40,091 nt of DNA from Microcaldota archaeon (GTDB lineage: Archaea > Micrarchaeota > Micrarchaeia > Micrarchaeales > Micrarchaeaceae): assembly GCA_021789815.1 (NCBI GenBank), contig JAJYIZ010000006.1, positions 1 to 40,091 of the forward strand, read 5' to 3'. Shown piece after piece: positions 3,296 to 21,634 of the stretch; positions within the stretch are counted from its first letter, which is position 1; the number at the start of each line of letters is the position of its first letter. A program made the translations under genes and the position numbers. The notes below the pieces were generated by a model. That model searched no databases. It worked only from the letters and a program-made list of their open reading frames with translations, and was not told the origin of the DNA.

Positions 3296-3299
3296 TCTA

Positions 3300-4709: not shown

Positions 4710-4732
4710 GATAATATTATATCGACATAAAG

Positions 4733-4740
4733 TATTTAAT
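4733..4740 (-). promoter_or_regulatory. TATA box of the integrase operon
   Basis: On the minus strand the sequence reads ATTAAATA, centred about 27 nt before the integrase ATG. This predicts a leaderless or nearly leaderless transcript. The box lies between the tRNA 3' end and the gene, so it travels with the element. Confidence 0.5.
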
Positions 4741-4771
4741 GCTTTTGATAATATTGAATACGTACTTAGGA

Positions 4772-4844
4772 TAGCTCCACCCAGATTCGAACTGGGGTTC
4801 CCAGGTCCAGAGCCTGGTGTCCTTGACCACTAGACGATGGAGCT
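4772..4844 (-). tRNA. tRNA-Gln (anticodon CUG)
   Basis: The minus strand folds into a full cloverleaf: acceptor stem AGCTCCA/TGGAGCT (7 bp), D arm with GTC/GAC, anticodon stem CCAGG/CCTGG closing the loop CTCTGGA with anticodon CTG, and T arm CCCAG-TTCGAAT-CTGGG. The discriminator base is A and no CCA is encoded. There is no intron. The 3' end faces the integrase gene, marking this tRNA as the probable attachment site; the gene is intact because the element regenerates it. Confidence 0.95.
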
Positions 4845-4872
4845 GCAATGCACCTAACTATTTGAGTAGCCT

Positions 4873-4883
4873 CTTTTAATATT
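4873..4883 (+). promoter_or_regulatory. TATA box of the M50 protease gene
   Basis: The sequence CTTTTAATATT is centred about 25 nt before the ATG at 4903, the expected spacing for a leaderless archaeal message. Confidence 0.5.
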
Positions 4884-4902
4884 TGCTGCATAAATCCTGT
4901 TG

Positions 4903-5595
4903 ATGATACGCGAGAACATCACGGGCTTCCATGAGGTTCGCGAGATACTCCTTGCAGACGCTGTTCTAATTATAGCCATGTCGCTCTTCCTTTCTGGAGG
5001 GATCTTCCAGGTAGGCAGCGCCAAATTCGAGCAGACTATGCTCTTCTTTTTGCCTATAGCTGCAATAGGTGTCTCACTCAGTTTCATACTCCACGAGCTG
5101 ATGCACAAGTTCGTTGCGCAGAGGTACGGTGCGATAGCTGGCTTCAGGACATCGTATCAGGGTCTAATGATAACCCTTGTGACAGGCGCGTTCGGCTTCC
5201 TTCTTGGGGTGCCCGGAGCGACAATGATATACGCGCACACCTTTACAAGGAAAGAGAACGGTATAGTGTCCCTCGCAGGTCCTTTGACAAACTTCGTTGT
5301 GTTCGGCGTGGCGCTTGCCCTCTTCTTTGCACTAGCTCCTGTTCAGGGATCATACCTTGCGGCTCTGCTCTCTTTCATAATCTTCATAAGCATACTCCTT
5401 GCGTTCTTCAACATGCTTCCGCTTTATCCGCTTGATGGCAGCAAGGTGCTTGCATGGAACAAGCCTATCTATTTTATAACGCTAGGCCTTATTTTCGTGC
5501 TCATGGTCTACTTCACGCAGATACCATTCACTTCGATAGTCTTCATGCTGCTCATCGCAGGCTTCTTCTCAATCTTCTACAGGGTGCGCTTCTGA
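4903..5595 (+). CDS. M50-family (site-2-protease-like) intramembrane metalloprotease
   Basis: A 230-residue polytopic membrane protein of the M50 family, which cleaves peptide bonds within or near the membrane. The zinc-binding HELMH motif is at residues 64-68 and the third ligand region N-x-x-P-x-x-PLDG at about 170-179, both inside hydrophobic segments; about six membrane segments are visible. There is no PDZ domain, as in minimal archaeal members. I start at the ATG at 4903; a TTG directly before it adds one residue and is less likely given the TATA spacing. It lies between the tRNA and the pilus operon, with its own promoter. The natural substrate is unknown. A BofA-like protein, a family known in Bacillus to restrain an M50 protease, is encoded about 16 kb away. 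Confidence 0.88.
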   Translation: MIRENITGFHEVREILLADAVLIIAMSLFLSGGIFQVGSAKFEQTMLFFLPIAAIGVSLSFILHELMHKFVAQRYGAIAGFRTSYQGLMITLVTGAFGFLLGVPGATMIYAHTFTRKENGIVSLAGPLTNFVVFGVALALFFALAPVQGSYLAALLSFIIFISILLAFFNMLPLYPLDGSKVLAWNKPIYFITLGLIFVLMVYFTQIPFTSIVFMLLIAGFFSIFYRVRF

Positions 5596-5647
5596 AACGC
5601 AAAAATATAAATGCTTGTAGAGAAGGTTATAAACAAAGGCGTACTGC

Positions 5648-6925
5648 ATGGCGGCTGGAGCACCTGAAACAAAGACGACAATAGACTCTCTTGTAGAATT
5701 GCTCAAGAAAAGAGGGAAGATGGATCTTAATACAATATCTACAGCGCTTGGTGTAGATACGGCTGTTGTTGAGAACTGGGCAAAGGTTCTGGAGAAGGGC
5801 AACGTTGTTCGAATAACGTATGAAGTAGGCAAGATGTTCGTTTCTCCTTCTACCCTGACACCCGAGCAGGAGGCCACCGAGAAGGCAAGGCTCGAAGCAA
5901 AGACTGTCACGCTGGAGGCCGAGGCAGGCACGCAGCTCATCTCTCTTGATAAATTCACAGAAGCCCTTCTATCAATCAAGACATCGGTTGCCGAAGCGGA
6001 GCGGATGGAGGCGACCCAGATACCAGAGGTGCGAAAGGCTATATCTGAGCTGAACAACATATACGCGCTTATAGAGCAGAGGAACCGAGGCCTCGAACAG
6101 ATGGCGAAGCGAGCTGCCGAGGTATACGACGAGGTCAACAAGAAGGCAACAGAGCTTGGCCAGCGAATCAATTCATTAGAGTCTGGCGATCAACTCAAAA
6201 AGGTAGAGGACGTAAAGCAGACGGCAACGCAGATATCAAAGAACATCTCAAGCATAGATTCCGACATAGCGCTTGTAGGCAAGAACGCCAGCGACGCGCT
6301 CTCGCAGGTAAAGAAGGGCATAGAGTCGCAGACCAAAACCATAGCGCAACAGGTGGATGAGAACAAGAGGAAGATAGACGCAAACCTCAAGGAGTATGCT
6401 GCCAAGGTAGCGCTGATAGAGAGGCAGCTAAAAGAGCGCGCAAGGTCGATGGAGACGTCTCTTGGCGATATGAATGAATTCAGCAAAGACAAGGAGAGAG
6501 AGTCGCGCAAGCTGCGCGACGCACGCGTAGAGTTCAACAACCAATACACAAAAATGAGCGAGGAGATGCTTGCGCAAAGAACTTCAATAGAGGCGCTTTC
6601 AAAGGACCTGCTCGGCAAGATAGACAGGCTCAAGGCAGGGTTCGGGGACGCAGCTGCGCTTGAAGATACGATAGCGACGATAAAGAGCCAGATAGGCTCT
6701 CTAGAATCCGAGATCGCGCAGGCACGCCAGCAGGTGAGCGAGACCCAGACGCAACTGCGCGCCCTCACCTCTATATCTTCGAGCATGACAACGGAGGAAC
6801 GGATGGCAACAGTAAGCAACATAGAGAAAAGATCTAAGAGCTCGGCATCAAAGATATCTGGTATAAAGGAAAAGGCGGAGAAGACCACTACAGCTATGAA
6901 GAAGCTTGTGAAAGGTGAAAAGTAA
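5648..6925 (+). CDS. Winged-helix plus long coiled-coil protein heading the pilus operon
   Basis: A 425-residue protein. Residues about 10-65 resemble a winged helix-turn-helix (SLVELLKKRGKMDLNTISTALGVDTAVVENWAKVLEKGNVVRITYE). The rest, about 100-400, is nearly all Ala/Glu/Lys/Gln-rich helix with heptad-like spacing, indicating a long coiled coil, followed by a basic tail. There are no membrane segments, so it is cytoplasmic. It is the first gene of the rightward operon, 12 nt before the secretion ATPase. It could couple regulation to pilus assembly or serve as a cytoplasmic scaffold; coiled-coil partners of archaeal type IV filament ATPases are known (the archaellum accessory proteins, for example), but homology is not claimed. 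A TATA-like AAAATATAAAT lies about 40 nt upstream. Confidence 0.75.
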   Translation: MAAGAPETKTTIDSLVELLKKRGKMDLNTISTALGVDTAVVENWAKVLEKGNVVRITYEVGKMFVSPSTLTPEQEATEKARLEAKTVTLEAEAGTQLISLDKFTEALLSIKTSVAEAERMEATQIPEVRKAISELNNIYALIEQRNRGLEQMAKRAAEVYDEVNKKATELGQRINSLESGDQLKKVEDVKQTATQISKNISSIDSDIALVGKNASDALSQVKKGIESQTKTIAQQVDENKRKIDANLKEYAAKVALIERQLKERARSMETSLGDMNEFSKDKERESRKLRDARVEFNNQYTKMSEEMLAQRTSIEALSKDLLGKIDRLKAGFGDAAALEDTIATIKSQIGSLESEIAQARQQVSETQTQLRALTSISSSMTTEERMATVSNIEKRSKSSASKISGIKEKAEKTTTAMKKLVKGEK

Positions 6926-6937
6926 CAGCGTGAACTA

Positions 6938-8437
6938 ATGGCCGAAAAAGAAGAGACAAGGGTCCTTACCGAATACAGCCTCAATGCGAACGGGATGCCG
7001 ATAAACATAGAGATTGTGCAGGCCGAGGACTATGTTCCAAACTACAACGTAACGATACCGGGGCTCAGCAACCCGACAAAGCTTCTTCTCTTCTCTCTCA
7101 GGAGCGAGCTCGTAACGATGGTCGCTGTAGACACTACAAGAATAGAGGACAGGAAGTACCTTGAAGAGATCAACAGGAAGTATGCAGAATCAAGCTCGTT
7201 GCTCATTGACAAGTACCTGCCAGGCACACCCGCAGACACAAAGGCCCTGCTCATCGCCTACATAATAAACATGATGCTAGGGCTTGGTGACCTAGAGGCC
7301 CCGCTCGCCGATGACAACCTAGAGGAGATAGCGGTCAACGGCTCCTCTAATTTCATATGGGTCTTCCACAAGGAATACGGATGGTGCAGGACGAACATCA
7401 AGCCGGGGAACGAGGAGATAATATACGATTACGCGGAGCAGATAGGCAGGCGTGTGGGCCGTGAGATAAACAACCTATCACCGCTCATGGATGCGGTTCT
7501 TGCAGATGGCTCCAGGCTAAACGCCACGCTATACCCGATATCGCAGCAGGGCAACACTATAACGATAAGGAAGTTTGCGAAGAATCCATGGACCATGCCT
7601 GCAATGATAAAGAACAAGACCCTAAGCGCAGAGATCGGCGCCCTAATCTGGGTCTGCATCCAGAATGAGATAAGCATGCTGATATCTGGGGGTACAGCAA
7701 GCGGTAAGACAAGCATTCTCAACGCATCGAGCATATTCTTCCCACCAAACAGGAGGATAGTCTCTGTTGAGGAAACAAGGGAGCTCACACTGCCGGGCTT
7801 CCTGCAATGGGTGCCCATGGTAACAAGGCAGCCCAACCCAGAGGGCAAGGGAGAAGTCACGTTGTATGACCTGTCGGTCAACGCGCTTCGCCAGCGTCCA
7901 GACATAGTAATAGTTGGAGAGATCAGGGTCAAGCACGACGCAGAGACGCTATTCGAGGCAATCCATACGGGCCACGCGGTCTACGGGACGGTCCACGCCG
8001 ACAACGCGCTAGACACGATAGTGAGGCTGACCAACCTGCCCATAGATGTGCCTAAGATAATGCTCAACGCGCTCGGTGCAGTGATAGTGGCATTCAGGCA
8101 CAGGAGCCGTGGCATAAGAAGGATACTAGAATACGGCGAAGTGCTCAGGAGCGGAGACGTTGGCATACTCTACAAATGGAACCCAAGGACGGACTCGTTT
8201 CCGCAGATCGGTGACATGACAAGGCTGGCGGACACGCTCATGCTCTATTCCGGCTACCAGCAAAAGGAGATCGCGGAGGACATAGAAGAGAAGGCAACTG
8301 TGCTAAACTGGATGGTGAAGAACGATGTGCTCTCTGTAGATGATGCAGGCCTTGTTGTCGCGAACTACTACAGGAACAGGAGCAAGGTCCTTGACATAGT
8401 CCAAAACGATGTCGAGTTCTCAAAGGATATATTTTAA
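6938..8437 (+). CDS. TadA/FlaI-like type IV pilus assembly ATPase
   Basis: A 499-residue secretion ATPase of the GspE/PilB/TadA/FlaI superfamily, the cytoplasmic motor that drives pilin insertion. Walker A, GGTASGKTS, is at residues 251-259; the Asp box around VSVEETRE at 276-283; the Walker B region DIVIVGEIR at 322-330; and the His box from HTGH to TVHAD at 343-355. The N-terminal domain (about 1-230) carries the region common to this family, including LEEIAVNGSSN. It is followed, with a 1-nt overlap of stop and start (TAATG), by the Pro/Gln-rich protein and then by two membrane platform proteins, so the operon makes a single complete motor and platform. Whether it works in assembly only or also in retraction cannot be told; there is only one ATPase here. 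Confidence 0.93.
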   Translation: MAEKEETRVLTEYSLNANGMPINIEIVQAEDYVPNYNVTIPGLSNPTKLLLFSLRSELVTMVAVDTTRIEDRKYLEEINRKYAESSSLLIDKYLPGTPADTKALLIAYIINMMLGLGDLEAPLADDNLEEIAVNGSSNFIWVFHKEYGWCRTNIKPGNEEIIYDYAEQIGRRVGREINNLSPLMDAVLADGSRLNATLYPISQQGNTITIRKFAKNPWTMPAMIKNKTLSAEIGALIWVCIQNEISMLISGGTASGKTSILNASSIFFPPNRRIVSVEETRELTLPGFLQWVPMVTRQPNPEGKGEVTLYDLSVNALRQRPDIVIVGEIRVKHDAETLFEAIHTGHAVYGTVHADNALDTIVRLTNLPIDVPKIMLNALGAVIVAFRHRSRGIRRILEYGEVLRSGDVGILYKWNPRTDSFPQIGDMTRLADTLMLYSGYQQKEIAEDIEEKATVLNWMVKNDVLSVDDAGLVVANYYRNRSKVLDIVQNDVEFSKDIF

Positions 8438-9204
8438 TGGATTCGTATCCTTATAGCTTTGGTAGAATGGAGGACCAACAAGGCGAGAGCGAGTACTCTA
8501 GGCTGCTTAAGAAAATATCAGAGATAGAGGGCAGCACAAAGCGCCAAGAGGCAGGCATAGCTGACATATCTGGAAGTTTCGGCGCGGGGTCCAAAAAGAG
8601 TTCCATAACGTACCAGGCGTTGCTCAACACTATACTTGAATCTGAGCGGCGCGGCGGTGCGTTCAGGAGGCCTGGCCAGGCGCCAGGAAGGCCACAGCCA
8701 ATGCAGCCGCAAGCAGCGCAACCAGAGCTGATTGTGCAGCCGGAGGTCCGCCCCATAGAGCAAGCCCCTATACAACAGCCCGAGCAGCTTGCAATGATGC
8801 AACAGCCGCAGCTCGAGCAGAAGGAGAGCTCCAAGGTATACGCCGGCAAGGAGCTCAAGGAATTGACAAAGCTTCTTCCAGTGCACGTCCCGGAGTTCGG
8901 AGAGCACAAGCTCAAGAGAACAGTAACAACAGAGCTGGTCCTTCCAAACCTGTCGCTTGCAGACCAGGTCGCAGAGCTTGAAAGGATACTAGAGGGGCTT
9001 ACATCCGGATCGCTCGCCACTACAGACGTTAGTACCATAAGCGAAGAAGTCTACGGCCTATTGAAAAAGGTGAATGCAGAGAAGCAGGAACTACAGAAGA
9101 AAAAGAAGCAGCTCGAAGGCGACGAGTTCCAGCTATGGAAGCTGAGGGACCAGCGCATCAAGGAGGTAATAACGCAGCTGGAGATGGCGAAGAAGAGAAG
9201 GTGA
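8437..9204 (+). CDS. Pro/Gln-rich coiled-coil protein of the pilus operon
   Basis: No known family was recognised. The 255-residue protein has a hydrophilic N-terminus (about 1-80), a low-complexity Pro/Gln segment (about 80-135), a short region with hydrophobic strands (about 140-180) and a C-terminal coiled coil (about 180-255, ending in many Lys/Glu/Gln). No signal peptide or membrane segment is visible, so it is presumably cytoplasmic. The start codon overlaps the ATPase stop by one base and the next gene follows 4 nt downstream, so it belongs to the assembly machine. The next protein begins with a similar Pro/Gln-rich stretch, and the two could interact through these segments. A linker between motor and platform is a reasonable guess. 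Confidence 0.75.
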   Translation: MDSYPYSFGRMEDQQGESEYSRLLKKISEIEGSTKRQEAGIADISGSFGAGSKKSSITYQALLNTILESERRGGAFRRPGQAPGRPQPMQPQAAQPELIVQPEVRPIEQAPIQQPEQLAMMQQPQLEQKESSKVYAGKELKELTKLLPVHVPEFGEHKLKRTVTTELVLPNLSLADQVAELERILEGLTSGSLATTDVSTISEEVYGLLKKVNAEKQELQKKKKQLEGDEFQLWKLRDQRIKEVITQLEMAKKRR

Positions 9205-9208
9205 AATT

Positions 9209-10405
9209 TTGCTCTTCAAGAAAAAGGCACCAAAGATAGTAACGATCGATGGCAAGAAGATAGAGCTTCAGCCAAAGCCTGGCCTGAACCTGTTCAAGCC
9301 GAAAGCAAAACCGGCACAGAAACCAGTGCAAGAGAAACCTGCAGAGATGAAGGCAGCGCAGACGAAGGTTGAGCAGCCTGTTCTCAAGGAGAAACCACAA
9401 CCACAGAAAGCTGCGCAGGAAACACAGCCTACTCCAAAACCGCAACCACAAATCCAACCACAGCCTGCTGTGCAGAAGCAAGAGCAGCCAAAGCAGCAGC
9501 CACAGGTGCCGAAAGAAAAGCCGATCCCGATGCCAAAGCTGCAGCACAAAGGGGGCAGGAGCAACATGCCGGGCTTCCTCGGAACCTATATCCAAAAACA
9601 GACGCTTAAGCACAGAAATCTAGAGATTCCCCTCAAGCAGCACAACATAGCCGCTACTCTCGAGCAATTCATAGAGAGGATGTTCATGGCTGCGCTGCTC
9701 ATGACCTTCATAATAGGGATCATGCTTCTTCTGCTTCTACTAAGAATAGGAATAATACCCGCCGGCGCTGTCGTGCTGGCGTTGGCAGTCTCATATCTGG
9801 TCTACCAGATAGCCTTCAACACGTTCATAAACTTCCCTCTAAGGAAGGAGGAGACACTGTCGAGGAACATAGAGCGCGACATACTCTTCGCTACCCGTGA
9901 TATGATAATATCTTTAAGGTCTGGCATGACGCTCTACAATGCAATAGTGTCGATAAGCACTGGCTACGGCGATGCGAGCAAGGAGTTCGCCAAGATAACC
10001 GAGAGGGCGCAGATCGGCATGTCATTGGAAGAGGCAATAGACAGGACAATAACGGAGAGCAAGAACCAGTCGTTCAGGAGGATAATGCTTCAGGCATCTG
10101 CAAGCATAAAGGCAGGCGCCGACATAGTCGCCGCTTTGCAGACTATAACAGACCAACTGTCGCAGGAACGTATAATCGCACTTAGAAGGTACGGGCAGAG
10201 GCTCAACGCCATAGCGATGTTCTACATGCTCTTCGGTGTGATACTTCCCAGCATGGGCATAGCGATCCTTGCGATTCTCACAACATTCATATCTATATTC
10301 GTCGTCAATTCGTCTGTCCTTGAGGCAGCGCTTGTCGGCATAGTGTTCCTGCAGCTGATCTTCCTGCAGATGATAAGGAGATCGAGGCCTGTATTCGCTA
10401 TGTGA
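9209..10405 (+). CDS. TadB/FlaJ-like pilus platform protein with Pro/Gln N-terminus
   Basis: A 398-residue protein of the GspF/T2SSF family, the inner-membrane platform on which the filament is built. Residues 1-110 form a cytoplasmic Lys/Pro/Gln-rich, disordered extension, unusual for the family. Hydrophobic segments follow at about 158-200, then the cytoplasmic helical T2SSF core (about 215-330, with LRSGMTLYNAIVSIS), then two or three more at about 335-395. The start is a TTG at 9209: it follows the previous stop closely and has an AGGTGA Shine-Dalgarno-like sequence just upstream, and the next in-frame ATG (residue 48) would remove part of the extension. It is translationally coupled with its neighbours and pairs with the second platform protein next to it. 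Confidence 0.88.
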   Translation: MLFKKKAPKIVTIDGKKIELQPKPGLNLFKPKAKPAQKPVQEKPAEMKAAQTKVEQPVLKEKPQPQKAAQETQPTPKPQPQIQPQPAVQKQEQPKQQPQVPKEKPIPMPKLQHKGGRSNMPGFLGTYIQKQTLKHRNLEIPLKQHNIAATLEQFIERMFMAALLMTFIIGIMLLLLLLRIGIIPAGAVVLALAVSYLVYQIAFNTFINFPLRKEETLSRNIERDILFATRDMIISLRSGMTLYNAIVSISTGYGDASKEFAKITERAQIGMSLEEAIDRTITESKNQSFRRIMLQASASIKAGADIVAALQTITDQLSQERIIALRRYGQRLNAIAMFYMLFGVILPSMGIAILAILTTFISIFVVNSSVLEAALVGIVFLQLIFLQMIRRSRPVFAM

Positions 10406-10409
10406 TGCT

Positions 10410-11402
10410 ATGGCAATAAACTTTGAGAGGCTTGTATCGAGGGACCTTGCGAGGCGCATCTCAGTAGAGCTGGACCTCGCAGGCGTCAAGAGCAGCGTCA
10501 ACCGAATGCTCGGCAACGCAATAGTCGGCGCACTCGTCCTTCTCATAGCCGTATCTTTCATGCTCGTCCTCTTTGTGCACCTAGAGTCCTTGATAGCGTT
10601 CGCCATAGGTGTGGGCTTCGCAGGATTCTACCTTGCGTTCATCTACATATTCCTTGAATTTTTGATAGACAGGCGCAGGACTGCGATGGAGACGATGCTG
10701 CCAGATTATCTTCAGATAACGTCTGCAAACCTTAGGAGCGGCATAGCCCTGGACAGGGCGATGCTGCTCGCGGCAAGGCCGGAATTCACCTTCTTTGCTG
10801 AGGACATAAAGGACATGAGCAGGCGCGTTTACGGCGGCGAAACCCTCGCAAACGCGCTCAAGGGATTGCAGCCAAAATACAGGTCGTACCAGCTCAACCA
10901 TACTGTAAGGATGATTACAGAATCATTAAGATATGGAGGCGCGATGGCCGACCTTCTTGAGCAGATATCAAAGGACCTAAGAGACCAGCAGATAATTCAA
11001 AAGGAGGTTGCGAGCCAGCTCTTCATGTACAGCATATTCATAGCATTCGCGGGAGTGATAGCCGCGCCCGTCCTGTACGCTCTGACAGGGCAGATGATAA
11101 GCGTGACCACTAACGTCTGGAAAGGCATAACCTTGTCATCGAATGTCCTGTCGACGTCTACTGTGTCGTTCCTGAGGCCCACCCCGCCGCAGATAGGTGT
11201 CACGACCTACAGGTACTTCTCAATTACTGCGATAATAATAATCACGGGTTTCGCTGCAGCCATAATGTCAGCGATATCAACGGGATCGGCAATCCGCGGG
11301 CTCAGATACCTACCGGTTTTCATACTTGGCGGACTTGGAATATACCTGATTGTTGCAAGGCTGATACTTGGCTTCTTCGCTGGCATAACGCCGGCAGGCT
11401 GA
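10410..11402 (+). CDS. TadC/FlaJ-like pilus platform protein
   Basis: A 330-residue GspF/T2SSF-type membrane protein. Hydrophobic segments at about 38-82 (two helices) precede the cytoplasmic core (about 90-200, with LPDYLQITSANLRSGIALDRAM and a second GGAMADLLEQISKDLRDQQ helix-turn region typical of T2SSF repeats), and three further segments follow at about 205-325. Having two platform proteins with one ATPase matches the TadB/TadC arrangement. The gene starts 4 nt after the previous stop and is the last of the operon; its stop lies 5 bp from the stop of the convergent prepilin operon. No prepilin peptidase is encoded in the operon, so that enzyme must come from elsewhere. Confidence 0.9.
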   Translation: MAINFERLVSRDLARRISVELDLAGVKSSVNRMLGNAIVGALVLLIAVSFMLVLFVHLESLIAFAIGVGFAGFYLAFIYIFLEFLIDRRRTAMETMLPDYLQITSANLRSGIALDRAMLLAARPEFTFFAEDIKDMSRRVYGGETLANALKGLQPKYRSYQLNHTVRMITESLRYGGAMADLLEQISKDLRDQQIIQKEVASQLFMYSIFIAFAGVIAAPVLYALTGQMISVTTNVWKGITLSSNVLSTSTVSFLRPTPPQIGVTTYRYFSITAIIIITGFAAAIMSAISTGSAIRGLRYLPVFILGGLGIYLIVARLILGFFAGITPAG

Positions 11403-11407
11403 CTGCG

Positions 11408-13957
11408 CTATGTCTGCATGAATGACGCTCCGCACGTGTTCGTCACAACGTTGGCATTCGTGCAGATGATTCCGTTATATCTGTAGAGATAGCCAGGGTA
11501 CTTGCCTTCTAGGTCAGGTGTTTGGTTCACAAGGCCGTTGATTGTTGAGGAGAGTGGCCAATACCCTATGGGTGTGTTGCCAACTACGGTATTGTTGAGA
11601 TACAGGGCCTGTACGTGGCCAGCGCTCAGGACGCTGTTGTAGAGCTGTACGTCTGTTATTATGCCCCTGTAGTTTGATGCATTTCCTATGATCAATGTGC
11701 CTATGGAGTTGAACGATGTAACTGTAGATTTTGTGTTTGCAACAAAGTTTCCATTGAGATAGAAATCAACGACAGCGTTGCTAGCCCCGCCAGATGTAAT
11801 CATGGAGCAGTCGGTTGTTATGAAGCTCCAGGTTCCGGTCTGTGTGATCTGGGAAGTTGTCTCGCTCTTGCCATCGCACAATGTCGTCAAGAAGCCTGCT
11901 GCGGTAGCCTCCACAGCGAAGCCGCCGGACAGGCTGCTCACCATCCAACTTCTCGAATTTTCTAGCGTGTCCGGGTAGAACCAGAAGCTTATCGTGTAGG
12001 CATTGTAGTTGTAGCTGCTACCTGTTGTCTGCACCATCGCGTTGGTGCTTCCGAAGAAGTGTATCCCTTGGGGTTGGAAGCCGTTGTAGATGTTGAATGC
12101 TTCTGATTCGTTGTACGATATGCCATTTACCACAGAGAGCGGCCTCGAACCAAGATAGAGATGCCCGAGCGAGGCGTTCGTGCACTGTGTTGGATTTGCG
12201 CAATTGAGAACCCCTATCGCAGGGCTGGTGTTGTAAGCGTTGGGCAGACTCTTGAAGAGAGGGTCTGCAGTGTAATCCGGTATGTTGTAGTATTTTATGT
12301 TGGTCGCCGTTCCGTTGTTGTCTGCGCCAGAGTAGCCCGTTGCATTTCCATTTAGCGGATACCATCCGACAAGGCTCTTGTTAGATATCGGTGTACCATC
12401 TATCCCGTTGAGGTAAATCTGCATGATTTGCGCCGGAGATAGCGCAGAGCTGTACACCTGCAGGTTCGACATGTTACCCACAAATCCTCCGGTCCCGCCT
12501 AGTGTAAGACTGTTCAGCGAGTATACCGCTGCAGGTACGGGCACCGTCACGTTGCCGCTCAGGCCTGTGTATGCGCTTGCTATTCCGTTGTTTATGCTTA
12601 CCGCTACGAAGTTCCAGTTATTGTAAACGATGCCTATACTGTTGCTGCTAAGTGTGCAGCTGCTGCTACCGATGGAGAGCTTTTCTGGATAGTAGAGACC
12701 AGAGCCAGCCGCGAAGCTTAGACCGATGTTGTTGGTGCCAAGCGAATTAAATATCGTTCCGGAAGCGGCTGGTCCGTTCGGTTTCACCCATACCGTAACC
12801 GTGACTGTATTTGAGTTGAGTGTATTCTTAGTTATTATATTGCTTGTAGAGCCGGAGAACCCTGCGCTCTCCCTCCCAAGCTGGCCAAACGAGAATATTC
12901 CGGGACCCGCACCCCTGTCTGCGGTCTGTTGGGAGTCCATCAAATACGATGCCGTGTAGGGGGATGCAGACCAGTACCCATTCTGTATCGCAGTCTGTAT
13001 TGGTGATGGGTCGAGCAGCGCAAGGCCAGGTCCATCGAGCAGCAAGGACGTGCCGTTGCCTATGATATTGGTCGTTATGATGCTGTTAGGAAATATAAGG
13101 TAAGGTTTTAGGTTTACCCCAGGAACTACATTAGCAACAAGACCTGCCATTCTGCACACCCCAGAACCCATGTTTATCGCGTTTGAGGTCACAAGTATGT
13201 AGTTGCTGGTCTGGAATTGCGAGGGTACGGCAGAGCAGCCGCTTGGCGTCCCTCCTATGAATATCGCCGTGCCATACGCGAACATGAATGGGCTGGTGCT
13301 TCCCGAGATTGCATACGTGTTTCCAATAAGTGTGGCTTGCGGGAAGGCCGATGCCTTTACATAAGATGGATTGCCGTTCTGCGCTCCGATAAGACTCTGC
13401 GTTCCGTTTATGCTGATGTTTGCTACCGAATATATCGGATAGCTGGTTGTGCTGTAGGTGCCGTTTAGCACGGCAAGGCCGGAGAGCCTTGCTGTAAGAT
13501 AGAACGGCATTGTCTGGTATACAGTTATGCTCATGTTTGTGAGGTTGAGTATGCCGCCCTGCAGCCCCGCAACCCTCTTTAATGCAGTAGTATAGTTGCC
13601 AAGGGTCGCCCCGCCCATGTACGAGAGCATGTTCGTGCCGTATATAGTCCCGTTGGTCATCAGGCTGTCCAGGGCAAATGCAGTATTGTTGACGAAGTGA
13701 TAGGTTCTAAGGGATGGCGTCGATTCGTAGGTCAGCAGGGCAGAAAGCGCATTGTTCAGGCTTGTCGTCAGGAATCCGGAAGAGCCGCCGTTTATCTGAT
13801 TGAGCAATGAGGCAGATGCGTATGCAGAAGATCCGCTAGTTGCAAGCTGGTTGTAGCCCATGTTGAGCACTATGTACGTGATGAGTTCGCCTAGCAGCAG
13901 TATGAAGAGCACAAGCGTTGCAAGCGTTAGCAGCACTCCCTTTTTGCTCTTCATCAT
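11408..13957 (-). CDS. Giant prepilin-like protein with two LamG domains
   Basis: A 849-residue surface protein, last gene of the prepilin operon. The start is the ATG overlapping the upstream stop (ATGA, 13957); an in-frame GTG 6 nt earlier is possible. The N-terminus MMKSKKG followed by about 25 hydrophobic residues looks like a class III signal, cut after Lys-Lys-Gly, with the hydrophobic helix kept as the pilin core. An outer region (about 40-370) is Ser/Gly/Asn/Tyr-rich with many sequons. Two LamG/concanavalin-like jelly-roll domains follow, at about 375-520 and 640-790, each ending in the pattern S-x-x-(Q/H)-(I/V)-x-x-(I/L)-Y-L-N. After the first comes the linker LVGWYPLNGN. Such domains commonly bind glycans or other surface ligands, so an adhesin at or near a filament tip is likely. 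Confidence 0.8.
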   Translation of the reverse strand: MMKSKKGVLLTLATLVLFILLLGELITYIVLNMGYNQLATSGSSAYASASLLNQINGGSSGFLTTSLNNALSALLTYESTPSLRTYHFVNNTAFALDSLMTNGTIYGTNMLSYMGGATLGNYTTALKRVAGLQGGILNLTNMSITVYQTMPFYLTARLSGLAVLNGTYSTTSYPIYSVANISINGTQSLIGAQNGNPSYVKASAFPQATLIGNTYAISGSTSPFMFAYGTAIFIGGTPSGCSAVPSQFQTSNYILVTSNAINMGSGVCRMAGLVANVVPGVNLKPYLIFPNSIITTNIIGNGTSLLLDGPGLALLDPSPIQTAIQNGYWSASPYTASYLMDSQQTADRGAGPGIFSFGQLGRESAGFSGSTSNIITKNTLNSNTVTVTVWVKPNGPAASGTIFNSLGTNNIGLSFAAGSGLYYPEKLSIGSSSCTLSSNSIGIVYNNWNFVAVSINNGIASAYTGLSGNVTVPVPAAVYSLNSLTLGGTGGFVGNMSNLQVYSSALSPAQIMQIYLNGIDGTPISNKSLVGWYPLNGNATGYSGADNNGTATNIKYYNIPDYTADPLFKSLPNAYNTSPAIGVLNCANPTQCTNASLGHLYLGSRPLSVVNGISYNESEAFNIYNGFQPQGIHFFGSTNAMVQTTGSSYNYNAYTISFWFYPDTLENSRSWMVSSLSGGFAVEATAAGFLTTLCDGKSETTSQITQTGTWSFITTDCSMITSGGASNAVVDFYLNGNFVANTKSTVTSFNSIGTLIIGNASNYRGIITDVQLYNSVLSAGHVQALYLNNTVVGNTPIGYWPLSSTINGLVNQTPDLEGKYPGYLYRYNGIICTNANVVTNTCGASFMQT

Positions 13958-16152
13958 CTCCACACCACCACGCTCACGTTGTATAGAGCGTTAGACTTTG
14001 TACCTAGGCTGAACGGGAAGGAGGTCGAACTCACCTGATAGGCGCTTGCAAGCGACGCTGGGATAAATGATGTCTTGGTATATGTGACATTGTAAGGATA
14101 GCCAACGCTACCAGAGCCGCTGTAATCGTTGGAGTCACCGTCAAGTGGGTACCAGGCATCCAGGCTTGTCGTGCTGTTGCTCGGTACTGGCACTCCGCCT
14201 ATCCCGTTTAGGTATATGCCCTCTACCTGGCTCGCGTTAAGCGTTCCTGTGTACACCTGCACGTTGGTTATCAAGGCGTTGCCGAACGAGATCGGCGCGT
14301 TTGTAGGATTCACACCTATCGCCAGCGCAGGGTTCGCAATCTTCTGGACTGTCGCGCTTGTCGTGCACACGGTGTCCAGGTTTCCATTCATATATATGTT
14401 TACAGAATTATAGTTCGTTACAACGACATTGATGTTATACCACTTGCCAGCCAGTATGCTGTTTGCGGGAGTTGTGCACGATTTTCCATTCATGGTCCAG
14501 TTGAAATACGACAAAGCAGAGGTGGTGCTCAAAGTGGCACTCCCGAAATTGAAGCCCTGGCTTCCACCAACGCCATTGTTGCTTATCGCGTTGTATATGT
14601 CTAGTATGGGTCCGGGCGCGTTTGCGCTGAACCACATCGATACGCTGAAGCTGCTTGTCGGATATTTTATGCTGGGCGCATATACGGCAATGTTCTTGCC
14701 GTTGAACGACGGCACTGTGAGAGACGGCGCATACGTTCCATTGATCAGGATGCCTATATGGCTGGCTTTGTAAGAGCTGTTCAGTAAGGCCGTTGCACAG
14801 CCGCCATAGCCGTTCAGATACATGCTTGCTATCGCCTGCAGGACACTGTCACTGCCTGGTGCTCTGCACGTCCCGAAAGCATAGAGGATGTTATTCCCAG
14901 ACATGTAGGCATTGCCGTAAGCTAGCGCTACGTCCTGATACAAAGATGCGCTGGCGGCAGGTATCGTTATGTTCCACAGCGGCGTGCTGTTGGACGACAA
15001 CAGATAGGATGTAAAGTGTGTGTAGTTTGCGACGACGTACACCTGTCTGGCTGTTGTTGCAGGTGTCTCGTTTTCATTTCCTGGCGTAGGCATTACAGCA
15101 AAGTTCCCGGTCAGTGTCCCTGCCGCAGGATTTGTTGCATATATCTTGTTGTAGAGGAACCAATAGGCCGTGTTGCCACTTATCGATACCCCGCCGATAG
15201 CTTTTGAGGGCAAGCTGGTCCCGGCCGGTTGCTGGAGCCAAAGGAGTTGTCCAGCCATGTTGTATCCATTGAGCCCGTAATAACCAGGCACCAGCAGAAT
15301 ATTACCCGAAATAGCCGGCAGGTTATATTTGTCTCCTACAGTACTGGACCATACCTGCTGCAGGTTTCCACCAGAAAGCGCAAATCCACTCCCTGCACCG
15401 CCACCGCCATACGAAGTACCTCCGCTTATCTCAAACAACCCCGATCCATAGACGGGTGTGGTAGATGCATACGGCACTGCATTGTAGGTGATGCTGCCAT
15501 TAAGAGGGCTCACAAGTACAATGTTGCTGATGGCTCCAAAGGCTACGTAACCATCCTCTAACGAGAGTGGAGATGTAGGTGCAGCAGGCAGGGCTATCGA
15601 ATTCCATGTAACGAGCCCGTTCGATTGAACCTCTGTGATATAGCCTGTTGAATTTCCATATATTATGTAGCCCTTGTAGACTATTGGGTAGAGCACATTG
15701 CCCTGTATGCTCTTGCTCAGTATGAGATTTCCGGTTGTCGCGTTCACTGCATAAAGAATGTTTCCGGCAGCGAACACCGCCATGCCATAGTCTACAGATA
15801 TCGGAGATGTAATAGGTGCATTGGCAGGGAACTGGTACAGCAGCATTGGGAGCTGCGGGCCTATGTTCGAAAATGATAGGTGGGCGCCGCCATTGGCGAA
15901 AGATGGCCATGTGCTCTGTGCTCCAAGGCTTGCATTTGCCGCAGCTGACGCGTATATCGAACTCTGAGCTGCGCCAGAAAGCGTTGTTCCAGACAGGCTC
16001 TGCGCCGCGCTGTAGGCCTCCGATCCAGAGGGCTGGAATCCAAAAGGAGTCGAAAGGTTAGCAAATACAAGTATGCCAACAGCAGCGCTTGCAACAATCA
16101 ATGCGAATGCTGCATCGACCGTGAATATAAATCCTTTAAGGTTTCCTACCAT
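13954..16152 (-). CDS. Giant prepilin-like protein with beta-propeller-like and LamG domains
   Basis: A 732-residue protein. I start at the ATG at 16152, which overlaps the upstream stop by one base (TGATG) and follows GGTGAG; the in-frame ATG at 16182 would add 10 residues and overlap more. The N-terminus MVGNLKG then FIFTVDAAFALIVASAAVGILVF is a typical class III prepilin leader and core helix. Residues about 115-430 show repeated strands such as GNILYAVNATTGNLI and GYIIYGNSTGYITEV, the pattern of PQQ-type beta-propeller repeats. A LamG domain lies at about 480-650, followed by the linker motif AWYPLDGDSNDYSG. It sits between two other prepilin-like genes with 4-nt or smaller overlaps. A filament or tip subunit with a receptor-binding head is the simplest reading. 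Confidence 0.78.
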   Translation of the reverse strand: MVGNLKGFIFTVDAAFALIVASAAVGILVFANLSTPFGFQPSGSEAYSAAQSLSGTTLSGAAQSSIYASAAANASLGAQSTWPSFANGGAHLSFSNIGPQLPMLLYQFPANAPITSPISVDYGMAVFAAGNILYAVNATTGNLILSKSIQGNVLYPIVYKGYIIYGNSTGYITEVQSNGLVTWNSIALPAAPTSPLSLEDGYVAFGAISNIVLVSPLNGSITYNAVPYASTTPVYGSGLFEISGGTSYGGGGAGSGFALSGGNLQQVWSSTVGDKYNLPAISGNILLVPGYYGLNGYNMAGQLLWLQQPAGTSLPSKAIGGVSISGNTAYWFLYNKIYATNPAAGTLTGNFAVMPTPGNENETPATTARQVYVVANYTHFTSYLLSSNSTPLWNITIPAASASLYQDVALAYGNAYMSGNNILYAFGTCRAPGSDSVLQAIASMYLNGYGGCATALLNSSYKASHIGILINGTYAPSLTVPSFNGKNIAVYAPSIKYPTSSFSVSMWFSANAPGPILDIYNAISNNGVGGSQGFNFGSATLSTTSALSYFNWTMNGKSCTTPANSILAGKWYNINVVVTNYNSVNIYMNGNLDTVCTTSATVQKIANPALAIGVNPTNAPISFGNALITNVQVYTGTLNASQVEGIYLNGIGGVPVPSNSTTSLDAWYPLDGDSNDYSGSGSVGYPYNVTYTKTSFIPASLASAYQVSSTSFPFSLGTKSNALYNVSVVVWR

Positions 16153-16709
16153 CAGCTCACCGATGATATGCTTCCACTCCATATAAAGACCTGTATCTGC
16201 ACTCCTACCCCGTTGATGAAGGCGCTCTTCTTGCTGACAAATGTTGTCAGCGAGTTGCCGGTATTTGGATTGCTGCCCATAGTTATGTTGTACGGTCCTC
16301 CGAGTATCGTTATGTAGTAATTGAAGGTGGTGCCTAGGGCTGGCCCGGCATCTGAATAATTATAGTTTACCATAGACTGCAGCGCATAGAGCTTCGCCGG
16401 GGACAGGCTGCTCGATCCTTGTGACGAGGCGAGCCCCGCACCAACTCCGCTCCAAGTTGAGACCGATGCCGGGTTTACCACAAACTGCCAGTTTGCCGGG
16501 CTTCCTGTTGAAAGAAGGTTCTGCGCAACCTGCTGGGCCTGTAGCTGCATTATATAAGAATTTCCGCTCGTTGCTAGGGCAAGCTGGCTGCTCACGTTAA
16601 ACCATGTGATTGTCAGTATAGCCATAGCAGCAAGGAATATGACAACTGCGAAGATCGCATCAAGGCTCCAGAACTGCGCCTTGAAGCCTTTCATTTTCAT
16701 TCTTATCAT
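16152..16709 (-). CDS. Prepilin-like protein (185 aa)
   Basis: The smallest member of the operon and the best candidate for the main filament subunit or a minor pilin. The N-terminus MIRMKMKG, then FKAQFWSLDAIFAVVIFLAAMAILTITWF, is a class III (type IV pilin-like) leader with probable cleavage after Lys-Gly and a single hydrophobic core helix (about 16-34). The rest, about 150 residues, is polar, with strand-forming Tyr/Thr/Ser segments and two or three sequons near the centre; there are no cysteines. It starts 4 nt after the stop of the 903-residue gene and its stop overlaps the start of the next by one base. A pseudopilin role is equally possible. Confidence 0.75.
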   Translation of the reverse strand: MIRMKMKGFKAQFWSLDAIFAVVIFLAAMAILTITWFNVSSQLALATSGNSYIMQLQAQQVAQNLLSTGSPANWQFVVNPASVSTWSGVGAGLASSQGSSSLSPAKLYALQSMVNYNYSDAGPALGTTFNYYITILGGPYNITMGSNPNTGNSLTTFVSKKSAFINGVGVQIQVFIWSGSISSVS

Positions 16710-16713
16710 GCGA

Positions 16714-19425
16714 TCATCCGAAAGAGGTGTTGAGGTTTGTCACGCTTGGTATGCCCTGCAGGTAGAGCTGCTCTATCTGGAACGGGCTGAGCGTTCTGTT
16801 GTAAGCCTGTATGTCGACTATCGAGCCGTTCATGTATGTGGAGCCGGAGTAGCCGAAGATTCCATTCTTGATGTTGATGCAGCCGATGCTGTTGCTCGGC
16901 GGGGTACCAACAGAAAGGCCGTTCAGGTAACCGGCAGGCAACCCATTGCTGAGGGTCGTCGCTACGAAAACCCAGCTGCCTTTAAGGCTGTAACCAGGTA
17001 TGACGTTCCAGGAATTTGGTGTTACGCTGTTCGCCACAGTGAAGCGTATACCGTTATCATTCATTGATATCTTATCAGTGCCGGAGCTGCTGAAATTGAA
17101 GATTCCGCCAAACGCGTTGCCCGGCAGTCCCCTATCATAGGCCCATGCGGATACGGTTATGTAGCAGAGATTCTTGTCCGGCAGTGGCGCGCTGCTGAAT
17201 AGTACGTTCGCTATTCCGTTGAATATCGGCACAAGCGTCGCGTTCTGCGGCGCAGATGGGTTTGTAAAGCCAATAGAGTTGTACGTTATGAGGTTGGAGG
17301 TTGCCGGTAACAGATTATTTATGTTGGCATAGTTGTTCACGCTGCCGGTAAGAGGATACCATGCAATAAGATTTTCGTTAGCTAATGGGGCACTGGTCAG
17401 GCCTTGTGTGTAAATCCGGGTCACCTGGCTTTGTGTAAGCGTGCTCCCATATAGCTGTATATTCGAAAGCATCCCGTTGAATGCGCTTATCCCGTTGCCA
17501 GAACGCCCTACCGTAAGATTGTTTATTGTATACGGACCAGCTATCCCTGTTGTGGAGTACGGGACCTTGCCGTTTGTGTAGAAGTTTATCAATCCGTTGT
17601 TCACGCTGACGGCCACAAAGCTCCAGTTCAGGCCGTTTATCCCATAGCCCGGATATGTTGCTAAGTTACTGCCAAGGCTTAGCTGTTCGTCGCCAAGACC
17701 ACCAGCCGCGTTGGCCGGCAGTCCGTTGTTAAGATAGAATCCCACGCTGCCCGTTCCCAATGAATTGAATATCGTGTAACCATTGGTGCTCGTCATCTTT
17801 ACCTGATTGCTCGCGTCGACCCAGAACGAGAGTGTGAAGGTATTCGTCTTTAAGGCAGAGCCTGTGGTGAAGCTTGCGAGGCCGTTGAAGACCCCGACAA
17901 GCGTCTCTGTCCTGTTTGCGAGATAGCCATAGTTGCTGTTCTTGAAGGTTCCGTTCTTCGAACTTGCACTGTATTCTCCTACATACGGCGAAGCGCCAAG
18001 GTTGAGCGGCCACCAGCCTATAACATTCTTTACAGTAGAGATGTTTCCGTTGAAGGTTTCCACCTGCACTATCGCGTTCCCTGCAAAACCGTTCGAGTTA
18101 AGCAGCGCACTGACAAGTCCGTTGTTGTTCGTGTATGCAGCAAGTGTGTTTGATCCGCCAAGGAGATAGTTTGTTGTTGAGATTCCTACAGGGATTCCGG
18201 ATGCACGAGCTCCTCCTACAGTTGGAACTTGTACAAGAAGGTCAACAGAGTGCTGGAATATAACGTTGCCTGGAACCCCGTTGCTTCCTCTACCGCTGTA
18301 ATCATTTGGATTTCCGTTCAGCGGCCACCACCCCACAAGCGATGGCAGCAATGCTGGAGGCGCATCAAGCGGCCCTCCAGAATATATGCCGCCGATCTGG
18401 TTTGCCGATAGAGAAGCGTTGTAGATCTGCACATCTGCAATGTAACCCTTGGTGTGTGTGCCGTTTGTGTTGGACCCGCCTATGTTCAATATGCTGGATC
18501 CAGATAATGTTATGGAGTTGCTTGCTGTGGCAACTACATTTCCATTAATATAAAGGGTCTCCTTGCCCGCTGTCTTGTTGTATGTTGCAGCAAGATCGTA
18601 CCAGTTGCCTACAGAAAGGCCGAAGCTCGGTTGTAGCTGGAAGGTGCTTCCCCAGTTGAGCAAGAAGACCGGTATGCCGTTATTCGTGACAGAGAGCATG
18701 AAGGGTTGAGAGCCGGAGTCCAGCTCTCCAATTATGGGGTTTTCAACATATGGTTTTGACGGTGACGTGTTTATGAACGTAAGATCCACCCAGGCATCAA
18801 GGGTTATGCTGTTGCCGATCACAAGGTTGGGGGTGTTGCTGACTGTAATTATAGCGTTGCCGCCATTGAAGTAGGCCGGATTAAAGCTTGCGGGCTCTGT
18901 CACAAGAGGCGTGCCAGTCAAGGTCGATGGCGAAGGAGGCGCCTGGTCAACGAATATTATTCCATCAAGGTTAGATATCTTTATGGAACCGGAGTACGCT
19001 GGTATCTTATACAGCTGAACGCTGTTGCTGTTTGCAATAAGCGTCCCGTTTATGAAAAGGCGTCTGGCGCTGCTGAAGGCAGTCCCTGTTATGACCTCAT
19101 TGCCGATGCCTGTCTTGGCCAGAACTTCGCCGTCTGTTGATACGGATATGTTATAGGATGCCTGCCCGATGCCAGCGCCGAGCGGCACCGTCATGGAGTA
19201 GCCGCTTCCTGCCTGGAGCGCCTGGTTTATATAACCTGCAACGTTCTGGGCGAGAAGCTGCATTATCGAGGACTGCTGATCCGAAAGAACCACTGCCCTC
19301 TGCGTCGCGATTGCTGCGAACGCAACCACAAATATTACCAGTATTATAGAGTAGACGACCACGAACTCGAGCGCAACCTGCGCCCTAGAGGTCGCGGGAC
19401 CTGCGTGAAGAGAGCTCCCCAACAT
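16714..19425 (-). CDS. Giant prepilin-like protein with three LamG domains
   Basis: A 903-residue protein, first gene of the leftward operon. I use the ATG at 19425; a TTG directly upstream adds one residue. The N-terminus has SRAQVALEFVVVYSIILVIFVVAF (about residues 13-36), a textbook class III signal: cleavage before Gln, with Glu at the fifth position of the mature core, needed for assembly in type IV pilins. A pilin-like region (about 40-180) is followed by three LamG/concanavalin-like domains at about 180-350, 510-676 and 735-893, separated by linkers with GWWPLNGN, GWWPLNLG and AWYPLTGS. Sequons are frequent. As the first gene, with a clear TATA box about 30 nt upstream, it should be well expressed. 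It probably acts as a multivalent adhesin on the pilus. Confidence 0.82.
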   Translation of the reverse strand: MLGSSLHAGPATSRAQVALEFVVVYSIILVIFVVAFAAIATQRAVVLSDQQSSIMQLLAQNVAGYINQALQAGSGYSMTVPLGAGIGQASYNISVSTDGEVLAKTGIGNEVITGTAFSSARRLFINGTLIANSNSVQLYKIPAYSGSIKISNLDGIIFVDQAPPSPSTLTGTPLVTEPASFNPAYFNGGNAIITVSNTPNLVIGNSITLDAWVDLTFINTSPSKPYVENPIIGELDSGSQPFMLSVTNNGIPVFLLNWGSTFQLQPSFGLSVGNWYDLAATYNKTAGKETLYINGNVVATASNSITLSGSSILNIGGSNTNGTHTKGYIADVQIYNASLSANQIGGIYSGGPLDAPPALLPSLVGWWPLNGNPNDYSGRGSNGVPGNVIFQHSVDLLVQVPTVGGARASGIPVGISTTNYLLGGSNTLAAYTNNNGLVSALLNSNGFAGNAIVQVETFNGNISTVKNVIGWWPLNLGASPYVGEYSASSKNGTFKNSNYGYLANRTETLVGVFNGLASFTTGSALKTNTFTLSFWVDASNQVKMTSTNGYTIFNSLGTGSVGFYLNNGLPANAAGGLGDEQLSLGSNLATYPGYGINGLNWSFVAVSVNNGLINFYTNGKVPYSTTGIAGPYTINNLTVGRSGNGISAFNGMLSNIQLYGSTLTQSQVTRIYTQGLTSAPLANENLIAWYPLTGSVNNYANINNLLPATSNLITYNSIGFTNPSAPQNATLVPIFNGIANVLFSSAPLPDKNLCYITVSAWAYDRGLPGNAFGGIFNFSSSGTDKISMNDNGIRFTVANSVTPNSWNVIPGYSLKGSWVFVATTLSNGLPAGYLNGLSVGTPPSNSIGCINIKNGIFGYSGSTYMNGSIVDIQAYNRTLSPFQIEQLYLQGIPSVTNLNTSFG

Positions 19426-19450
19426 CAAACCGATATTAATATCATAGCAA

Positions 19451-19510: not shown

Positions 19511-21634
19511 ATGGAAATTATCTCTCTAAAGGGAAGGATGCCCTTTGAGATAATCGAATCTATGCAGAAAAGGGGGATAGAGAGGCTGACTCCACCGCAG
19601 TCAGACGCCGTTAAGCAGGGACTTCTTGACCTGAACAACCTGGTGATTGCGGCCCCTACAGCAAGCGGAAAGACCCTAATCGCAGAGATCGCCTGCATAA
19701 ATTCTATACTTGGAAGAAGGCAGAAGGCGGTCTACGTAGCCCCAATGAGAGCTCTAGTTACTGAGAAGTTCAACGAGTTCAAGCAGTCATACCCTTACAT
19801 AAAGTGCGCGATGTCGATCGGCGACCTCGACTCGAATGACCAGTGGCTCGCCGATTACGAGATGGTTTTTGTATCTACAGAGAAGTTCGACAGCCTGATG
19901 CGACATGGCATAGAATGGACGGGTTCCATAGGCTGCCTCATATTCGATGAAGTGCATATGCTGGGAGACATGTCAAGGGGACCAACCCTTGAGATACTGA
20001 TCACAAAGTTGATCTCGTCATCAAAGGCGCAGATAATAGCGCTAAGCGCAACAATAGGCAACGCAAGGGAGATCGCGAAGTGGCTCGGTGCCAAGATAAT
20101 AGAGAGTGACTACAGGCCCGTCAAGCTAAGCAAGGGAGTAATCTGCAACAGCAGGGTCTACTACAGCGATGATGCAACCGGAGAGCCCACCGAGAGTGCC
20201 ATGCTGGCAGGCAGCAGCAAGCTCCCAGAGATAAGGATCATAGAGGATACGATTGCGCAGAAGAAGCAGGCACTCATATTCTACTCAACAAGAAGGAACG
20301 CAGAGGCAGGAGCAAAGAGGATAGCAGAGAGCATGTCAGAAATACTCACAAAGGGGAATACCGCAGCACTTGAAGATGTGAGCAAGAAGGTCCTTGGCGC
20401 GCTCGACAGGCCCACAGAGCAGTGCATAAAGCTGTCGAAGTTGATAAAATCCGGCACTGCCTTCCACCACGCAGGGCTTCTAAACGTGCAGAGGAGCGCT
20501 ATAGAGGAGGCGTTCAAGAGCAACATGATAAAGGTGATATGCTCGACAACGACTCTGGGGTTTGGCGTGAACATGCCGGCCCACACTGTCCTTGTGCGCG
20601 ACATACATAGGTACGAGAACTCATCCAGCGGTATGCTCGGCGTAAATGAGGTGACGCAGCTCTTCGGCCGCGCAGGCAGGCCAAAGTATGATACAGAAGG
20701 AAGGGCCCTGCTCATAGCATCAAACATGGAGCGCATGAAGGACCTATACAAGAACTACATAATAGCAGAGCCAGAGGCGATTGATTCTGCGCTAGGGATA
20801 GTTCCCGTGCTCAGATCACACATCCTCTCTCTTATCGCAACCAACTTCATCAACACAAAAGAGTCTATGAACAGCTTCTTCGCAAAAACATTCTACGGCT
20901 TCCAGTACGGCAACATGGGTCACATGAGAAGGGTGATAGATGAAGTCGTCAGCGACCTCAAAAGATGGGAAATGGTGAAAGAAGACGGCTCAGCGTATCT
21001 CGCAACAAAACTGGGGAGCAGGGTCAGCGAACTTTATATAGATCCGCTGTCTGCAAAGTGGATGATAGATTCGCTTCCGAACGTGGCAGAGGACCTTGAT
21101 GTACTATTCATGATATCTAACACGCTCGAGATGCGCCCCTATGTACGGACAAGCATGGATGCAGAAGACAGGTATGCTGCGTATCTGCATACACACAAGA
21201 AGCTCATGCTAAAGGAGTTTGATCCGGTTGACTACGGCAACTACGACCCGGAAGGTGCTTTCAGCACGGCCCTGATGCTCAATGACTGGGCTGAGGAGCT
21301 CAAGGAACCTGAGATAGTGGAGAAGTACTCTTCGACGCCAGGCGCACTCTACACAAAGATAACCAACGCAGACTGGCTGATATACTCTGCAATAGAGCTA
21401 TCGAAGATACTCAAAAGATCCTCAAGGAATCTAATAGAGATGCGCGTCCGCCTGAGATACGGAATAAAGGAGGAACTCCTAGACCTCGTAAGATTGCAGC
21501 AGATAGGAAGGGTGCGTGCCCGCACGCTTTACATGAACGGTATAAAGAGGGTATCTGATATAAGAGACAACAAGGCAAGGGTGACAAGCCTTCTGGGCAA
21601 GGAAGTTGCAGAAAAGGTCTTCTCCCAGTTATAA
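19511..21634 (+). CDS. hel308: Hel308/Hjm-type superfamily 2 DNA helicase
   Basis: A 707-residue Ski2-like SF2 helicase that unwinds lagging-strand and forked DNA at stalled replication forks. Motifs seen: Q-motif region LTPPQ at about 26-30, Walker A APTASGKT at 48-55, motif Ib/Ic region STEKFDSL near 122, Walker B DEVH at 146-149, motif III SATI at 179-182, and motif VI QLFGRAGRP about 393-401. The C-terminus has the ratchet domain and a helix-hairpin-helix-like piece (QQIGRVRARTLYMNGIKRVSDI, about 665-686) as in Hel308. The length matches the family (about 690-720). The 3' end contains the TATA box of the following histone gene. An SF2 helicase of another Ski2 subgroup is the only real alternative. 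Confidence 0.93.
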   Translation: MEIISLKGRMPFEIIESMQKRGIERLTPPQSDAVKQGLLDLNNLVIAAPTASGKTLIAEIACINSILGRRQKAVYVAPMRALVTEKFNEFKQSYPYIKCAMSIGDLDSNDQWLADYEMVFVSTEKFDSLMRHGIEWTGSIGCLIFDEVHMLGDMSRGPTLEILITKLISSSKAQIIALSATIGNAREIAKWLGAKIIESDYRPVKLSKGVICNSRVYYSDDATGEPTESAMLAGSSKLPEIRIIEDTIAQKKQALIFYSTRRNAEAGAKRIAESMSEILTKGNTAALEDVSKKVLGALDRPTEQCIKLSKLIKSGTAFHHAGLLNVQRSAIEEAFKSNMIKVICSTTTLGFGVNMPAHTVLVRDIHRYENSSSGMLGVNEVTQLFGRAGRPKYDTEGRALLIASNMERMKDLYKNYIIAEPEAIDSALGIVPVLRSHILSLIATNFINTKESMNSFFAKTFYGFQYGNMGHMRRVIDEVVSDLKRWEMVKEDGSAYLATKLGSRVSELYIDPLSAKWMIDSLPNVAEDLDVLFMISNTLEMRPYVRTSMDAEDRYAAYLHTHKKLMLKEFDPVDYGNYDPEGAFSTALMLNDWAEELKEPEIVEKYSSTPGALYTKITNADWLIYSAIELSKILKRSSRNLIEMRVRLRYGIKEELLDLVRLQQIGRVRARTLYMNGIKRVSDIRDNKARVTSLLGKEVAEKVFSQL

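Follow-up and report, generated by a model that had tools for sequence, protein, structure and literature searches.

A conserved type IV pilus locus in a Micrarchaeota genome, with giant prepilins that are probably lectin-bearing minor pilins

What surface structure is built by a locus in which the motor of a type IV pilus faces giant prepilins with lectin-like domains, and which part do the giants play in it? The question is raised by a window of 40,091 nucleotides (contig JAJYIZ010000006.1, here C6) of a Micrarchaeota metagenome-assembled genome (GCA_021789815.1; 678,604 bases in 29 contigs and 90% complete, so that genes may be absent from the assembly). The closest named relatives by the ATPase of the locus were mostly metagenome-assembled genomes of Candidatus Micrarchaeota (79-65% identity). 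A sequence-only reading had described nine genes in two convergent operons, and all nine open reading frames (ORFs) were recovered at the positions that it gave: five motor and platform genes at 5648-11402 on the plus strand and four prepilin genes at 11408-19428 on the minus strand. The stop codon of P0005 occupies 11400-11402 and that of P0006 starts at 11408, which leaves the 5 bp gap described. We consider it likely that the locus encodes a type IV pilus in which four minor pilins, three of them lectin-bearing, prime a PilA filament and form its tip; its most likely product is a thin fibre with sugar-binding proteins at the end.

The motor and platform assigned from the sequence were confirmed by Pfam. 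P0002 (6938..8437, plus strand) is an assembly ATPase of the VirB11/GspE2/CpaF type (T2SSE, E 2e-33), and among solved structures its best relative is 2oap, from a type II secretion system (E 1e-89). P0004 (9209..10405, plus strand), a TadC-like protein with a Pro/Gln-rich N-terminus, and P0005 (10410..11402, plus strand) matched T2SSF with E values of 6e-15 and 4e-17. An assembly ATPase of the VirB11/GspE family and a platform of the FlaJ/TadC/GspF type, both expected of an archaeal type IV pilus, are present. Three related machines were considered and rejected: (i) the archaellum, since P0002 scored 261.9 bits with the FlaI profile (equivalog cut-off 550); (ii) the Tad pilus, since P0002 scored 167.6 bits with the TadA profile (curated cut-off 373); (iii) the Sulfolobus bindosome, the BasE profile giving 130 bits (E 1.1e-37; curated cut-off 1000). 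The remaining two proteins of this operon are accessory. P0001 (5648..6925, plus strand) is cytoplasmic and consists of an N-terminal helix-turn-helix-like region (weak FeoC match, residues 17-73) and a long coiled coil. Its N-terminal region is conserved as far as Woesearchaeota, with T10, D13, W44, L48, E49 and Y58 invariant; profile matches in the PDB were judged to be coiled-coil noise. P0003 (8437..9204, plus strand), Pro/Gln-rich with a C-terminal coiled coil, keeps its position in most Micrarchaeota loci, and no counterpart was detected in the Woesearchaeota loci compared. Coiled-coil accessory proteins occur in other archaeal type IV pilus loci (Makarova et al. 2016, PMC4858521). P0002 and the P0004/P0005 platform would extrude the filament, with P0001 and P0003 as putative cytoplasmic adaptors.

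Genome-wide, only two T2SSF proteins were found, P0004 and P0005. The T2SSE family likewise has two members, P0002 and an orphan on contig C18 (87485-88261; loci L024 and L037). A second pilus system on C18 was rejected, as this T2SSE has neither T2SSF nor pilin neighbours; this ATPase may be of the retraction type or unrelated. Its neighbours, named by eye from their sequences, resemble genes for a signal recognition particle receptor, a topoisomerase-like protein and a protease. Judged by gene content, the locus is the genome's single type IV pilus assembly system. The sequence-only reading had advised a search for a prepilin peptidase elsewhere, and one A24 protein was found, on contig C8, with the D22 and GAGD81 pattern. 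About 10 bp from its gene lies one of four stand-alone PilA-type prepilin genes of the genome, all outside the locus and all with E (most of them) or D at position +5. The filament shaft would be built of these PilA-type pilins, and the single FlaK/PibD-type peptidase would cut the four prepilins of the locus.

These four prepilins are encoded in the order P0009, P0008, P0007 and P0006 on the minus strand, and their class III signal peptides were judged by motif. P0009 (16714..19428) has the canonical leader RAQVALEF with E at +5, followed by a pilin head and three LamG modules. P0008 (16152..16709; KAQFWSLD) is a small minor prepilin free of any cargo module. P0007 (13954..16182; KGFIFTVDA) carries an eight-bladed beta-propeller (residues ~113-437) and one LamG module (~495-653), and P0006 (11408..13963; KKG leader) carries two. 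Whereas the motifs are conserved in all four and the N-termini across genera, only the P0009 signal is canonical: the acid is D at +6 in P0008 and P0007, and P0006 has no early acid, a correction to the earlier account of four class III signals, which otherwise stands. With ORFs of 904, 742 and 851 amino acids (P0009, P0007 and P0006), the three giants differ from the 732-903 residues first given through the choice of start codons. The canonical signal of P0009 and the adjacency of its operon to the motor would suit a thick, lectin-coated heteropolymer in which the giants are the repeating units, one sense of the 'adhesive filament' first proposed. P0006 lacks the acidic residue usually required for packing within a filament and the genome has four stand-alone PilA-type pilins, and both facts speak against such a polymer.

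The six LamG domains counted from the sequence were confirmed as Laminin_G_3 stretches (three in P0009, one in P0007, two in P0006), and a genome-wide search found LamG domains in these three proteins only. The beta-propeller of P0007, a PQQ/BamB-type domain (Pfam PQQ_2), had been overlooked. In the AlphaFold model of P0007 (mean pLDDT, the predicted local distance difference test, of 57) the propeller region reaches mostly about 60-84, and its structural matches are BamB and a designed propeller of eight blades (TM-score normalised by target 0.80); the model of P0006 resembles domains of the laminin LG, neurexin and pentraxin kinds. The models were modest in quality and served for domain folds only. 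Tip adhesins of the PilY1/PilC type carry beta-propeller and von Willebrand factor A (vWA) modules at the pilus tip. PilY1, however, is not itself a pilin, and the Pfam scan of P0007 returned PQQ_2 rather than the PilY1 propeller family. A weak match of P0009 LamG to the NCBIfam entry TafC led no further, as a literature search on that name yielded nothing. Residues ~190-330, the second part of the P0006 core, have matches in numerous further large open frames of related genomes, which suggests, on sequence similarity, a mobile surface-protein domain in its own right. The cargo folds also bear on whether the tip might bind DNA and supply nucleic acid to an auxotrophic cell, since DNA import by pili has been proposed for other DPANN archaea, the Undinarchaeota (PMC7414124). 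LamG and beta-propeller domains belong to the folds of surface recognition and are not typical of DNA binding, and no ComEC-type channel was matched in the genome, a weak negative because none of the archaeal control genomes gave a match either; we regard DNA uptake as very improbable.

The ancestry of the giants became apparent from Woesearchaeota. There, the same motor is preceded by a matching prepilin set: two small prepilins, both with E at +5, an orthologue of P0008, a giant whose leader resembles that of P0007 (for example KKGFFFTLDA) and a prepilin of 319-342 amino acids. A helix-turn-helix/coiled-coil protein, the ATPase and two T2SSF proteins follow, and a gene for a PilA-type pilin is close by. 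P0008 orthologues share twelve invariant columns from Micrarchaeota to Woesearchaeota. A profile search with P0008 against solved structures gave no match, and the family matches DUF7287 and DUF7288 weakly, which we take to be haloarchaeal families. The first 190 residues of P0006 align with the 319-amino-acid Woesearchaeota prepilin (probability 97%, E 5.5e-11), and the head of P0009 aligns with a prepilin of 128 amino acids (probability 96%, E 1e-9). The stem homology of P0007 rests solely on its N-terminal region and its conserved C-terminus, a VW end similar to that of the Woesearchaeota giant; the conservation of this end is partly explained by the overlap of the last residues with the start of the next gene. 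P0006, P0007 and P0009 each combine a class III signal and a pilin stem with grafted modules, the build of a modular pilin. In the P0007 slot, the Woesearchaeota giant carries a vWA domain, with a clear DxSxS metal-ion-dependent adhesion site in four of four proteins and sub-threshold Pfam matches in both of those scanned. Because the counterpart of P0006 is plain and that of P0007 vWA-bearing, the giants probably do not form the filament itself but are minor pilins whose binding modules can be swapped. The P0007 and P0006 genes overlap by 10 bp, as do their counterparts in Woesearchaeota locus L015, which makes coupled synthesis plausible. Such coupling, and the PilA-type gene that Woesearchaeota add to the matching prepilin set beside the same machine, likewise disfavour giants as repeating filament subunits, and we assign that alternative a low probability.

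Conservation of the locus was surveyed with P0008 and ATPase profiles in 245 genomes of the phylum, 199 of which matched the former and 226 the latter. Eight Micrarchaeota loci compared had the same convergent two-operon layout. The layout was further compared in the 94 genomes listed with both matches, which came from two families of the order of the source organism. ATPase and P0008 were found on one contig within 15 kb in 63 genomes, and in all 63, a count that speaks for this one order, the operons were convergent with the prepilin downstream. The co-conservation bears out the proposal that the two operons form a single machine.

Within the order the giants mostly hold their slots and their order while the modules vary. 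The P0009 slot holds three or four LamG domains, the P0007 slot one or two, with or without a propeller, and the P0006 slot none to three or a DUF2341 region. Outside the order many of the listed relatives of P0006 are plain and have open frames of ~216-336 amino acids; some are larger. Between close relatives, identity is mostly lower in LamG domains (21-52%) than in pilin stems (35-75%) and in ATPase and platform domains (61-78%). Some loci depart in gene structure. In locus L049 (genome G167; 1854-6215) and also in G159, P0008 lies inside a long open frame with upstream sequence (1453 amino acids in L049), possibly two fused prepilins or a lost stop; P0008-containing open frames of 1459 and 1474 amino acids were found in two genomes. 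In locus L046 (6814-10476), P0007 and P0006 are apparently fused into 1220 amino acids; L055, from the same genus, has two overlapping genes.

Taken together with what is established for type IV pili, these findings lead to the following model. The four minor pilins would assemble first, prime the filament and remain at its tip, with P0006, which has no acidic residue, outermost. P0006, P0007 and P0009 would be small pilin stems with grafted LamG modules, plus the beta-propeller in P0007, and together these modules would form a multivalent adhesive head that binds glycans or surface proteins. Of the 'adhesive filament or tip complex' first suggested, the tip complex is the better reading; the filament itself is probably made of stand-alone PilA, with the giants as minor or tip subunits.

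Several observations weigh against this model. No pilus or leader cleavage has been seen for the source organism. Peptidase cleavage of P0006, P0007 and P0008 is uncertain because the early acid is absent (P0006) or lies at +6. Between P0007 and the Woesearchaeota giant only the N-terminal leader region is detectably similar (probability 86%), the confidence of the AlphaFold models is modest, and LamG domains are not always sugar-binding. The operons lie on separate contigs in 29 of the 94 genomes and far apart on one contig in two, so that their adjacency is not obligatory. Finally, the sister-family loci L048, L050 and L054 have P0008 directly beside P0005 and lack P0006 and P0007. Locus L048 stops at a contig edge, a LamG giant (three or four LamG domains) adjoins P0008 in L050 and L054, and two of those sister-family genomes (G173 and G185) have a relative of P0006 on a different contig.

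That no filament has been observed would also fit a pseudopilus resembling a type II secretion system, in which the leaders anchor the giants in the membrane or S-layer for surface display and no long fibre is made. The Sulfolobus bindosome, a type IV pilus machine that puts binding proteins on the surface, is a precedent, and its BasE profile does reach the expectation value given above, far under the cut-off. Against this stand the PilA-type pilins of the genome and the reported pili-like links between small ARMAN-type and larger cells (PMC5498576), and we think surface display of this kind unlikely.

The surroundings of the locus were also inspected. A gene for an M50 (site-2-type) membrane metalloprotease with an HELMH motif (4900..5595, plus strand; PF02163, E 2.8e-11) lies 52 bp upstream of P0001 and precedes P0001 orthologues in most Micrarchaeota loci compared; it is placed apart in L010 and inverted in L049. 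Whether it is part of the pilus machine is uncertain. On the other side, a helicase gene (19511-21634; Pfam DEAD and archaeal helicase domain 4) is divergent from P0009, as recurs in loci L013, L040, L041, L053 and L056. A secreted-looking protein of 865 amino acids (24291-26888), without a Pfam match, may belong to the S-layer or otherwise to the cell surface.

Parts of this design have been described before. Mia14, an ARMAN-2-related archaeon, has an expansion of LamG-like proteins, some linked to type IV pilus loci, for which roles in host interaction were proposed; it has two such loci, one of nine genes (MIA14_0252-0260) termed euryarchaeal-like, and one FlaK-like peptidase (Golyshina et al. 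2017, PMC5498576). By that description, Mia14 resembles the present genome in its LamG proteins tied to pilus loci and its one peptidase; as far as the text on these loci goes, it does not treat LamG proteins as prepilins, nor gene order, homology to small pilins or phylum-wide conservation. Euryarchaeal Clade 1 and 2 loci share the VirB11-type ATPase, two TadC-like proteins, several minor prepilins and stand-alone PilA, and Clade 1 loci encode two large DUF2341 putative tip adhesins, whereas the main text of that 2016 census does not mention LamG or describe lectin-bearing giants in three of four minor-pilin slots (PMC4858521). The closest tested analogue is Streptococcus sanguinis, in which a ConA-like lectin (PilC, which binds glycans) and a vWA domain (PilB) are grafted on minor pilins beside a small PilA, all three modelled at the pilus tip with structures and binding data (PMC9934059). 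That system is bacterial; here three of four minor pilins are modular, with six LamG domains and a beta-propeller. In the Myxococcus Kil system, alternative tip complexes of minor pilins (KilLMN) bear extra domains and are used on target cells, but this is a bacterial Tad system for predation (PMC12075869). No published account of lectin giants as modular minor pilins was found in the literature searched, which covered few subscription papers. The earlier statement that no named system of this exact make-up is known is only partly right, with Mia14, the DUF2341 adhesins and S. sanguinis as partial precedents. What the present comparison adds is the assignment of the giants as probable modular minor pilins with stems that appear to share ancestry with small prepilins, and the apparent slot-wise exchange of modules, confinement of LamG to the locus in the source genome and phylum-wide co-conservation. 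It suggests that lectin pilins of modular build, known from streptococci, also arose among archaea, in slots where related lineages have plain or vWA prepilins.

The source archaeon is tiny and probably host-dependent. The ligands of the adhesive head are probably glycans on other cells, perhaps those of a host archaeon, and it is plausible that the fibre acts as a grappling hook onto host cells, in agreement with the lifestyle of DPANN archaea and with the pili-like contacts reported for ARMAN cells (PMC5498576). Tentatively, and with some doubt, the proposal might be extended to Micrarchaeota and more broadly DPANN, which would hold their hosts by means of one conserved type IV pilus with swappable tip modules (LamG, beta-propeller, DUF2341 and vWA). 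If this is true, module swapping and rapid lectin divergence would set which host is recognised, as phage tail-fibre modules do. For the question of how ultrasmall DPANN archaea locate their hosts and stay attached to them, the locus offers a defined, phylum-wide candidate, with four putative tip subunits whose modules are short and tractable.

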